Assembly (NCBI RefSeq): GCF_004803465.1 | Contig: NZ_SRSF01000001.1 | Span: 1,116,501 to 1,180,500 of the forward strand | From: Neolewinella litorea | GTDB lineage: Bacteria; Bacteroidota; Bacteroidia; Chitinophagales; Saprospiraceae | Length of the DNA stretch: 64,000 nucleotides | Reading direction: 5' to 3' | Part shown: positions 52,781 to 55,739 of the stretch, piece by piece | Numbering within the stretch: the first letter of the stretch is position 1 | Layout of the letters: every line of letters begins with the position of its first letter | Translations under genes and position numbers: made by a program | The notes under the pieces: generated by a model | Databases searched by the model: none | The model's input: the letters and a program-made list of their open reading frames with translations, nothing else | Told to the model about the DNA's origin: nothing

Positions 52781-53149
52781 TCAGTCGCGCCTGGTCAGTT
52801 CCTGTTGCCAGCCCCGCACCTCTCCCAGTCGGAAACGAACGGGAAAGCGGGTAGCCTCCTCGATGTCTAGTTCCAGCCGGCAGAAGAACGCCAGATAGGG
52901 TCGTGCCGCCGCAAAATCGAAGGCAGCCGGGGCGGCGGGGCGTTCTGCTTGAATATAGGGGGCGCGCCCGCGGGTGCCGCCCAAAGTCACGGGCAGCCAG
53001 GCAGGGTGGCTGGGTCGGAATGGCACGTCGGATACCACCTTTAACGGCTGGTATTTGATGAACGTGGCACCTGCGTCCGCGCCCACCCGAAGTTGTGCGG
53101 GCAGGGAAATCGTAAACAGGAACAGCAAGGCCGTGAGCGGAATACGCAT
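52781..53149 (-). CDS. Small secreted protein of unknown function
   Basis: This 122-residue protein has a signal peptide (MRIPLTALLFLFTISLPAQL, cleavage after about residue 18) and a short mature domain with no recognised family. Its ATG shares one base with the stop of the VWA-domain gene (TAATG), so the two should be translated from one transcript. No membrane anchor or lipobox is visible. Confidence 0.72.
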   Translation of the reverse strand: MRIPLTALLFLFTISLPAQLRVGADAGATFIKYQPLKVVSDVPFRPSHPAWLPVTLGGTRGRAPYIQAERPAAPAAFDFAAARPYLAFFCRLELDIEEATRFPVRFRLGEVRGWQQELTRRD

Positions 53150-54243
53150 TACTTTTTCTTGTTCTGCTTGTAGTCGCGGAATACGAAATCGCCGAGCCCC
53201 TGGAGGCCGCTGTAGTAGGCCTTGCCACCGTTGGTCTCGGTAAAACTCTGTACGAACTGCACGAGGTAAGGGTCGCGCGCGATCATGAAAGTGGTGACGG
53301 GGATGCTGATCTTGCGCAGGCGGGCGGCGAGGTTGAGCGTGCGGTTGACGATGGTACGGTCGAGGCCCATGCTGTTCTTGATGTAGCGTTTGCCGCGCTT
53401 GATGCAGGTAGGCTTCCCATCGGTAATCATGAAGATCTGCTTATTGGGGTTACGACGGCGGCGGAGGATATCCATGGCCAGCTCCAGTCCGGCCACCGTG
53501 TTGGTGTGGTAGGGCCCCACCTGGAGGTAGGGCAGGTCCTTGATCTCGACGGGCCAGGCGTCGTTGCCGAAGACGATGATGTCAAGGGTGTCTTTCGGGA
53601 AGCGGGTGGTTATGTACTCGCTCAGCGCCATGGCCACCTTTTTAGCGGGGGTGATGCGGTCTTCGCCATAGAGGATCATCGAGTGGCTGATGTCGATCAT
53701 GAGCACGGTCGACATCTGGGCCTGGTAGTGGGTTTCGTATACTTCAAGGTCGCTGGTGGTGAGCTTGAAGTCGTCGATGCCGTTGTTGATCTGCGCGTTG
53801 CGGAGGCTTTCGCTGACCGCCATTTTGTCGAGCGGGTCGCCGAACTCAAAGGGCCGCCGCTCGCTGGTGGTTTCATCGCCACGGCCGCTGTAGCGCGTGC
53901 TGTGGTTGCCGCGCTTGGTTTTCTTGATCTCGCCGAAAATGTCCTTTAGCGCTTTCTGGCGCAGTTCGCCTTCCATCTTGGCGGTGGGCACGTACCCGGG
54001 GGAGCCGGGTCCGTTGCCGGGTTCGATGTAATTCTTGTCGATCAGTTCCTGGATAAAATCGCCGATGCCGTACTGGTCGTCGGTGAGCTCGTACTGCCGG
54101 TCCAGGTTCGTGAGCCACTGCAGGGCCTCGCCTACGTTGCCGGAGGTGTGGGTGAGGAGCTCCTGGAAGAGTTTGAGCAGCTTTTCGAAGGGGGTTTCGT
54201 CGTTCTGCCCGGGGATGTAGTTTGAGAATTTCCAGCCTATCAT
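53149..54243 (-). CDS. VWA domain protein (CoxE/ChlD-like)
   Basis: The 364-residue soluble protein has an N-terminal helical region and a C-terminal von Willebrand A domain with the metal-ion-dependent adhesion site DISHS at 184-188 (VLMIDISHSMILYGEDRITPAKK) and later IFMITDGKPTC. Such proteins usually work with a MoxR-type AAA ATPase, but none is adjacent. I chose the ATG at 54243 (MIGWKFSNYIPGQND); the frame runs on into the upstream repeat array, which is not coding. The start lies 48 bases from that array. Confidence 0.88.
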   Translation of the reverse strand: MIGWKFSNYIPGQNDETPFEKLLKLFQELLTHTSGNVGEALQWLTNLDRQYELTDDQYGIGDFIQELIDKNYIEPGNGPGSPGYVPTAKMEGELRQKALKDIFGEIKKTKRGNHSTRYSGRGDETTSERRPFEFGDPLDKMAVSESLRNAQINNGIDDFKLTTSDLEVYETHYQAQMSTVLMIDISHSMILYGEDRITPAKKVAMALSEYITTRFPKDTLDIIVFGNDAWPVEIKDLPYLQVGPYHTNTVAGLELAMDILRRRRNPNKQIFMITDGKPTCIKRGKRYIKNSMGLDRTIVNRTLNLAARLRKISIPVTTFMIARDPYLVQFVQSFTETNGGKAYYSGLQGLGDFVFRDYKQNKKK

Positions 54244-54290: not shown

Positions 54291-54357
54291 TAGCGGTTGG
54301 ACGGTTTAAGCGGTTGGACGGTGGGGGGACCGTCCAACGGACCAAGCGTTGGACGGT
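54291..54357 (+). repeat. Left REP-like inverted repeat array
   Basis: It contains three copies of GGTTGGACGGT or CGTTGGACGGT and one opposite ACCGTCCAACG. The pair at 54329-54339 and 54347-54357 forms a perfect 11-base hairpin with a seven-base loop. The array mirrors the one at 55033-55099. Confidence 0.9.
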
Positions 54358-54412
54358 GCAAAAATTAACACGACTCCACAAATAGTAGAGTGAAGGGCCC
54401 TTGATTGCAGCC

Positions 54413-55048
54413 ATGTATCACTCCAATATCATCTACCACGTCTACAATCAGAGTAACAACTTTGAGCTACTATTTCGAAACGACGAAAACTATCAGTATT
54501 TCTTACGAAAGGTAAGACGACACCTGTGCCCCTACGCCGATATATTCTGCTACTGCCTGATGCCGGATCATTTTCATATCCTGCTTAAGCCCAAGGAGAT
54601 TGGCTGCGCTGAAAGTCGCTCCAGCCGCTATTTCCGCCACGACGAGAATGGTAAAGGCCCTGTGTATCAGCAAAACCTTTCGAATGCTTTCAAAACTTTA
54701 CTTAGCAGTTATTGCCAGGCTGTAAACAAAAGGTCGGGCCGGCGTGGATCCTTATTCAAAGCAAAAACTAAGGCAAAACCCGGGTACTGCGATTTTTACC
54801 CCGACTCACATTCTCTGGAGGGCGACGAGCCATACACACTCTTCATACCCTATTTAAAAACTTGTTTTAACTACATCCACGACAATCCAGCAAAAGCTAA
54901 ACTGGTTGATTTTCCCGAAGAGTGGCCCTATTCGTCGGCCCTGGACTATTTGGGCCATCGCGATACAGGTATCTGCAATTTTGCCCTGTCAAAAAAGCTA
55001 TTAGGCATCGAGCGATGTAAGTCAAATCAGGGACCGTCCAACGGGTAG
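54413..55048 (+). CDS. REP-associated tyrosine transposase (RAYT, Y1-type HUH)
   Basis: The 211-residue protein is an IS200-like single-strand nuclease. The HUH motif is HFH at 53-55 (CLMPDHFHILLKP) and the likely catalytic tyrosine is Tyr154 in CFNYIHDNPAKAKLV, a motif typical of RAYTs. The start is taken at the ATG 54413; a TTG at 54401 is in frame. The codon use is more AT-rich than in neighbouring genes. The stop codon lies inside the loop of the right-hand REP hairpin, so gene and repeat are fused. Confidence 0.92.
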   Translation: MYHSNIIYHVYNQSNNFELLFRNDENYQYFLRKVRRHLCPYADIFCYCLMPDHFHILLKPKEIGCAESRSSRYFRHDENGKGPVYQQNLSNAFKTLLSSYCQAVNKRSGRRGSLFKAKTKAKPGYCDFYPDSHSLEGDEPYTLFIPYLKTCFNYIHDNPAKAKLVDFPEEWPYSSALDYLGHRDTGICNFALSKKLLGIERCKSNQGPSNG

Positions 55049-55099
55049 ACCGTTGGACGGTGGGCACCCCGTCCAACGCCTTAAACCGTCCAACCGCTA
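55033..55099 (-). repeat. Right REP-like inverted repeat array
   Basis: This array is the inverted counterpart of 54291-54357. A perfect 11-base hairpin (55033-55043 with 55051-55061, seven-base loop) comes first, then CCGTCCAACG and the outer ACCGTCCAACCGC. The hemD stop codon begins five bases beyond it. Confidence 0.9.
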
Positions 55100-55103
55100 A
55101 TCC

Positions 55104-55739
55104 CTACCCCAGCAACCCCACCAGCCCCTCCTCCCCAGCCGTTTCGGGCCAGACGCAAGCCACCCCACGCCGCAGTAGCTCCGCGCCCGTACTCGGGCCC
55201 ATGGCCAGCACCCTCGCACCCGGCGAAAGGGGATAACTATCCAGGTAGGCGGCTACGTTGAGCGGACTGGTAAAAATGTAGGTCGCGGCCTCAATCGCCG
55301 CAGCCGGCGGAGCCGGCTGGTTGTCGTAGCAGACCGCGTCGAGCACCGTCAGCCGATCGGCAAGGGCGCTTTGTACGCTGAGCCGCGATTGCCGGGCACG
55401 GGGAAAAAAGACCCGCCGCCCCTCCGCCACCGCCAGGAAATGCTCCGCGGTGCGATCGGGATGGCCGTCACCGCAGAAATCGACGCGCAGGGATCGGCGC
55501 AACAGCGCCGCCGCCGTACTGCCACCGATGGCGGCCAGGCGAACCCGCTCCGTCGGAATCGGACCGGCAAACTGCACGGCGCGGGAACTGTAAAAGAACC
55601 ACCAGTCACAGGGTCCAGGAAGCTCAAACGGTACGGCCGAAAATCGCAGCAGCGACTGGGCGTGAATCGTCTCGCCCACCTCATCGGCCCACTTCCTCAG
55701 GGGGCTATCGGGTTTAAGGTCACGACTGATGAATATCAT
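55104..55739 (-). CDS. hemD: Uroporphyrinogen-III synthase
   Basis: HemD closes the hydroxymethylbilane ring to uroporphyrinogen III in haem synthesis. The 211-residue protein shows the weakly conserved family features: WWFFYSSRAVQFA near the start of domain 1, VRLAAIGGSTAAALLR, then VFFPRARQSRLSVQSAL, YIFTSPLNVAAYLD and VLAMGPSTGAELLRRGV. Length is a little short. It stands apart from other haem genes and ends next to the REP array. Confidence 0.86.
   Translation of the reverse strand: MIFISRDLKPDSPLRKWADEVGETIHAQSLLRFSAVPFELPGPCDWWFFYSSRAVQFAGPIPTERVRLAAIGGSTAAALLRRSLRVDFCGDGHPDRTAEHFLAVAEGRRVFFPRARQSRLSVQSALADRLTVLDAVCYDNQPAPPAAAIEAATYIFTSPLNVAAYLDSYPLSPGARVLAMGPSTGAELLRRGVACVWPETAGEEGLVGLLG

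Follow-up and report, generated by a model that had tools for sequence, protein, structure and literature searches.

The window, i.e. the whole 64-kb stretch of DNA analysed here, carries a single gene for a predicted RAYT-like Y1 HUH transposase between hemD and a VWA-domain gene, enclosed by two inverted REP-like arms (Table 1). A recount of the arms confirmed exactly what the first-pass annotation had claimed, namely 67 bases with 56 matching and a perfect outer 20: the first mismatch comes only after 20 bases from the outer end, and 40 pairs of shuffled flanks gave 35/67 matches at best. Each arm contains a 29-nt hairpin, for which the annotated 11-bp stem and 7-nt loop were recovered on both sides, the right one reading equivalently as 12 bp with a 5-nt loop. 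Folded alone as DNA, these hairpins reach -12.8 (left) and -15.3 kcal/mol (right), with 0/200 shuffles as good. Within 86 nt of context, where other pairings compete with the hairpins and the right side is weaker, the z values are -4.2 and -2.8 (0/200 and 2/200 shuffles as good). The TAG stop codon does lie in the loop of the right-arm hairpin, and the gene is indeed poorer in G+C (46%) than the window (60%). Only the start changed: the TTG at 54401 of the open reading frame list was replaced by the ATG at 54413, which is common to relatives. An Rfam scan of the window at the gathering threshold returned one tRNA and nothing else.

Table 1. Features of the transposase unit and its neighbours (window coordinates), with examples of tandem operators from other loci.
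Feature	Position	Strand	Basis or remark
VWA-domain gene, left neighbour	53149..54243	-	PF13519, E 5e-9
Left REP-like arm	54291..54357	+	56/67 match to reverse complement of right arm; outer 20 perfect
Hairpin GTTGGACGGT-6-ACCGTCCAAC, genome-wide core	54313..54338	+	Inside left arm; folding and genome search
Hairpin, 11-bp stem, 7-nt loop	54329..54357	+	Left arm; folding
Operator TTAACA-nn-ACTCCAC-n4-AGTAGAGT	54365..54391	+	Dyad at 54373-54391; 0 mismatches
Putative -7-like box, TTGATTGC	54401..54408	+	Placed from the alignment of 52 sites
RAYT-like Y1 HUH transposase, 211 aa (HFH, YIHDNP), predicted	54413..55048	+	Profile, motif and model evidence
Right-arm hairpin, 12-bp stem, containing stop codon 55046-55048	55033..55061	+	Folding
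Right REP-like arm	55033..55099	-	Arm comparison
hemD, right neighbour	55104..55739	-	PF02602, E 7e-17
Tandem-operator examples	L194:2051-2630 (G020), L202:1910-2211 (G004), L189:4929-5126 (G000); L199 (G012)	minus (L199)

The transposase and its relatives

Judged by its predicted fold and its motifs, the gene product belongs to the REP-associated (RAYT) Y1 HUH transposases. The best PDB match of an AlphaFold2 model (built on a nine-row alignment; pLDDT 80.6) is 4er8, a TnpA-REP with a REP hairpin (rank 1, E 3e-7, TMt 0.67), followed by IS200/IS605 transposases. Sequence profiles reach less far: NCBIfam NF047646 (REP_Tyr_transpos) matches at E 2e-10 with 40.5 bits, below its cut-off of 80, Pfam Y1_Tnp stays sub-threshold (12.7 vs 23), and a PDB search by sequence yielded a single match at E 0.25. 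The catalytic-type motifs H53-F54-H55 and Y154-I-H-x-N-P are unchanged in 9/9 aligned proteins; the two closest named matches in a protein search came from N. xylanilytica and Lewinella sp. W8. Fold, motifs, repeat copies elsewhere and a repeat private to this genome (G000) together support the initial reading of a RAYT with cognate REP-like repeats. Another RAYT-like group (L087, L149-L154; 198-202 aa) was seen in other members of the genus, with own palindromes beside most of its genes.

There is no support for taking such a unit as new in itself for this lineage. TnpA-REP subclass 2.6 (Quentin 2018), described as a Bacteroidetes group with atypical flanking structures and equated with RAYT group 5 of Bertels, is already covered by the portion of that paper available to us (PMC6006769). 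Going by that description, the two share the Bacteroidetes host, flanks lacking a constant GT[AG]G, genome copies elsewhere and a long HuH-Y distance, which is ~101 here and has a median of 82 in subclass 2.6 (PMC6006769). Compared by eye, the motifs differ: DHFH, SLFK and YIHDNP here, NH[LIV]H, WQ and YIH[QN]NP there, so that the subclass 2.6 motif set is unmatched and the SLFK position lacks a W. Like the E. coli TnpA-REP/REPtron (4er8; PMC8266576, seen in part), the unit combines a Y1 HUH fold with inverted hairpin repeats around a single gene; unlike it, it has neither a bulged stem nor a constant GTAG. No constant GT[AG]G guide was found beside the G000 hairpins, and inspection by eye showed linkers that often read GGGT[AG][AG], with GTAG by the stop codon and GTGG at other places, the left-arm loop excepted.

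Repeat positions and repeat types

A repeat confined to the unit, and a decayed gene fixed at this site in all relatives, had been named beforehand as signs against a working REP/RAYT system. Searching G000 with the core CGTTGGACGGT-6-ACCGTCCAACG (at most three mismatches) gave 19 places, 17 of them beyond the arms in 12 loci, and 12/19 fit the private core at 0-1 mismatch. The reversed pattern had no place in G000, and none of 20 further genomes of the genus yielded the core itself. BLAST (E <= 1) returned 16 repeat loci outside the arms, one of which, C1:1031157, was set aside as probably chance (E 0.05). No long G+C3-rich frame runs across 13 of the 16 loci, five of the 16 start at most 13 nt past the end of a long frame to their left, and at one G000 locus nine units follow one another in tandem.

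The VWA gene is present at E <= 1e-50 in 20/21 genomes of the genus. It adjoins a RAYT in 7/20 genomes examined, all within a close clade of nine genomes that includes G000 and has VWA identities of 96% or more. Comparison of the hemD-VWA junction, as proposed in the first-pass annotation, thus places the RAYT at this site in 7/9 close-clade genomes; the junction lacks it in G009 and G001 as well as in the more distant G002. The gene is intact in six of the seven, with a frameshift near the start in G012. With repeat copies present elsewhere as well, the signs named beforehand against a working system did not appear. Among the six intact genes (G000 included), pN/pS is 0.23-0.37 in 14/15 pairs and dN/dS is 0.18 in the remaining one, synonymous sites being saturated. 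Near-identical multiple copies are absent from G000, where a search gave one full match and a next homologue of ~34% identity with other repeats. The fixed site, the single copy and purifying selection are the grounds on which we regard the gene as probably domesticated.

The repeats flanking the seven RAYTs differ between genomes, as judged by eye. A syntenic RAYT with different flanking repeats is a REP orthoswitch, a phenomenon known from Pseudomonas (Nunvar 2013, PMC3686654). The GTYGGAC core is common to the repeat families of the species. At two mismatches, the repeat type of the sister genome G016 occurs 25 times per strand in G016, five times per strand in G000 (none at the RAYT); the remaining genomes have 0-4 matches each. 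Some GTTGGAC units also lie within G016 arrays, from which we take the two types to be kin.

To what extent positions are shared was assessed by comparing 15 new-type G000 loci (C1:1031157 left out) with 18 G016 loci selected for holding G016-type repeats. Eight of the 15 have a BLAST match to G016 loci; those lacking one count neither for nor against replacement. Six of the eight align on both flanks and L026 on one, while L025 was dropped from the orthologous sites because its match starts ~1.1 kb from the repeat. At the six sites the unique flanks align, yet G000 holds a G000-type repeat and G016 a G016-type one; many positions are therefore old, their sequence probably having been renewed in place. 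Such renewal could proceed by gene conversion, REP-into-REP insertion or repeated nick repair. Old-type and new-type units occur together at three of the six (L018, L032, L042), of which L018 and L032 fall within a long open frame in the frame test. Of the G000 stretches taken for old-type repeats, 11/17 match G016 repeat loci, although the two locus sets are not independent because L305, L310 and L311 overlap new-type loci.

In the accessible part of the Pseudomonas study (PMC3686654), syntenic RAYTs are likewise flanked by different REP classes, with the old class left in the genome. That work models new REPs as spreading and old ones as decaying, whereas here new repeats occupy old repeat positions; on the switch mechanism, the text at hand offers speculation only (Nunvar 2013, PMC3686654). 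Static positions with changing repeats are direct material on REP family switching.

The proposed operator and the genes behind it

Between the left repeat and the start codon lies a dyad operator, ending 21 nt before the ATG (model R1, E 2e-10); both it and the gene set sharing it had been missed in the first-pass annotation. With at most two mismatches, the pattern has nine sites in the 4.4 Mb of G000 (reversed pattern, 0), 4-15 sites each in G004, G009, G012, G016, G017 and G020 (reversed, 0-2) and two sites each in G001 and G007. Twelve more distant genomes have 0-5 sites, all at two mismatches (reversed, 0-3). A sequence-only profile recovered the same nine G000 sites (E < 1e-9), followed by three weak tandem copies adjoining one site and reverse readings of three sites; weaker G000 sites may be missed because the profile scored 150 of 513 candidates.

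When 52 sites of seven genomes are aligned, AnAT-TTAACA and the dyad stand out and, 36-43 nt further along, so does a -7-like box whose consensus ends in TTG and is followed by AT; in this RAYT gene the TTG is one base out of register. On three of five measures, covariation across the dyad is above that of every shuffle; on the other two it is no better than shuffles (457/500, 303/500), and such a signal can arise among related sequences without structure. Sliding the dyad by -2 or +3 scores nearly as high, and 26/40 rows lack a standard pair at one dyad position. The bases of the operator shift by species together, at nearly all genes of the set: after collapsing tandem arrays, base 9 is the species majority at 39/40 sites (0/20000 permutations) and base 25 tracks species at 38/40. 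A variant, ACTCTCAC-n3-ATGCGAG, has 11 places in G007 and eight in G001 (0-3 mismatches), with 0, 0 and 1 in G000, G004 and G009, and some G007/G001 sites are hybrids of the two versions.

The nine G000 sites precede two RAYTs, the gene for a GxxExxY PD-(D/E)XK protein (TIGR04256, E 1e-41; PF13366), a frame of 625 codons that encodes a lamin tail domain and a T9SS sorting domain, and, at five sites, small frames carrying a GG motif at a distance of some hundreds of nt. Read from their translations, the latter are putative double-glycine peptides; the small peptides tested against Pfam and NCBIfam matched no model. One peptide group adjoins a C39-peptidase ABC transporter (PF03412; TIGR01193 with 521 bits, just below the cut-off of 523.85) and an Rce1-like (CPBP) protein. 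The same gene classes stand behind the operator in other close genomes, and so they do in G007 and G001 with their variant; in these two, there is also an operator site at an IS200-like Y1 transposase.

Both G000 RAYTs, ~34% identical and with different repeats, thus carry the same stretch before their start codon. Across the operator-bearing genomes, 12 of 16 RAYT-like genes (E <= 1e-5) have it, in two groups: the seven at the hemD-VWA site and five of the second kind, one of which (G007) has an in-frame stop. Eleven of the 12 came from a check of 32 loci, the other 21 of which stand at five or more mismatches, and that of G012 from the pattern search; L139, L140, L141 and L148 lack an operator. 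The second G000 RAYT, L047 (C23:464549-465058), is flanked on either side by a palindrome of its own (TGGCAGACGTCGGACGTCTGCCA type), and a similar gene follows it in G000, G001 and G007.

Operators are often arranged in tandem before peptide operons, in units spaced ~110-170 nt apart (Table 1). After many of these units comes a small hairpin whose loop is AACG-like, with no long frame following; these are possibly tandem small RNAs. In G000 (L193:885-1480, C39), the intact GxxExxY gene is preceded by its operator, -7 box and first codons in three weak tandem copies.

The peptide-bacteriocin and competence regulons of streptococci likewise group double-glycine peptides, a C39-peptidase exporter and a CPBP/Rce1-like protein around one control signal. 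Unlike those, the set here includes Y1 transposases and the GxxExxY protein; since no com gene was noticed among the genes at the nine G000 sites, the label of a competence regulon was not adopted.

A small HTH protein encoded beside the peptide exporter (L271-L278), 0.3-4 kb from peptide sites, is a candidate for the operator's regulator. Its orthologues (at least 59% identity) are found in 8/9 operator genomes, and its recognition-helix sequence is distinct in G007 and G001, the genomes with the variant operator; G009, despite its operator sites, has no close orthologue, only a 37% relative. Another candidate for this role, the gene running divergently from that of the secreted protein, was rejected, its translation reading by eye as tRNA nucleotidyltransferase-like.

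Readings of the locus

Taken together, we consider it likely that this is a REPtron whose domesticated Y1 HUH transposase has its repeats overwritten over time and its expression tied to the operator of the peptide genes. A vertically kept transposase would recognise its own single-stranded hairpin repeats and spread or overwrite them, mostly at existing repeat sites. The dyad operator of a small gene set (double-glycine peptides, the GxxExxY PD-(D/E)XK protein and the T9SS-secreted lamin-tail protein) would control its transcription; as the operator is common to the transposase and this set, the enzyme would be made when that programme is on. The repeat structure, predicted fold, fixed site and private repeat family can be read from the DNA, as can the differing repeat types at orthologous positions and the shared operator with its species-specific bases. 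Binding and nicking of single-stranded DNA, overwriting as the mechanism, regulation by a dimeric factor and the inducing condition are what we infer from them. The small size of the repeat family is among the points against this reading: 12-16 loci, compared with 355 REPs in E. coli according to the part of the source at hand (PMC12306157).

Could this be an ordinary REPtron, its operator-like stretch a general promoter or the hairpin of an mRNA leader, unconnected in regulation with the peptides? Lying in the 5′ region, the stretch does form a partial inverted repeat, and Bacteroidetes REPtrons are already known from what is accessible of PMC6006769. Yet there are nine sites in 4.4 Mb, the few gene classes behind the operator are the same in several genomes, and a variant operator precedes these classes in G007 and G001, which makes this unlikely. 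The reading as an RNA leader was itself set back by the -7-like box downstream of the dyad, which would hence not be transcribed from there. A recent IS200/IS605-type insertion sequence, to which the Y1 fold, the mirrored ends and the lower G+C would also apply, is very improbable: the gene is single-copy, outnumbered by its repeats and at the same site in six other genomes, and whoever accepts that shared site has already refuted this reading.

As for the repeats, independent drift at each site, rather than concerted replacement, could draw on the shared GTYGGAC core and the GTTGGAC units of the G016 arrays, since point changes could interconvert the types. We regard it as quite unlikely, given that most G000 places hold the private core nearly unchanged, that orthologous G016 sites hold G016 sequence and that half of the aligned loci contain both types of unit.

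Beyond the reading of a REPtron under a peptide-gene operator, a broader and rather doubtful idea is that the clade's domesticated RAYTs serve as effectors in a social or competition programme centred on peptides and run by one species-specific regulator, the REP network being rewritten in place during its episodes. If so, the regulator would turn on double-glycine peptides, the lamin-tail protein, the PD-(D/E)XK protein and two RAYTs together, with an IS200-like Y1 transposase added in two species, and the processing of single-stranded DNA would be timed to meetings with neighbours or their DNA. As to what RAYTs do for their hosts, the part of a modelling paper available to us argues that REP populations persist only if beneficial (PMC8049555). 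Because the promoter names possible partners of the RAYT, what it does and when it acts becomes a question of co-expression. Our search of the literature on RAYTs with competence, bacteriocins or promoters, with bioRxiv preprints outside its scope and some sources available in part, found no paper linking them and none placing RAYTs in such a regulon; Bacteroidetes REPtrons themselves are known.

Finally, G004, G017, G007 and G020 hold the operator directly before a repeat array with no RAYT gene. Such loci, kept at orthologous places in four species, set the system apart from the Pseudomonas orthoswitch as far as it is covered by the accessible text (PMC3686654), and may be REPtron remnants or sources of a transcribed repeat RNA. 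By eye, their repeats resemble those of each species' own RAYT. Both flanks are orthologous among the loci of G004 and G017 and one G007 locus, the neighbours in G004 being trmD and a beta-lactamase-fold gene. In G020 (L197, L198; C54), the left and right flanks lie ~33 kb apart with operator and repeats at each, which suggests that one ancestral locus was split by rearrangement at the repeats.
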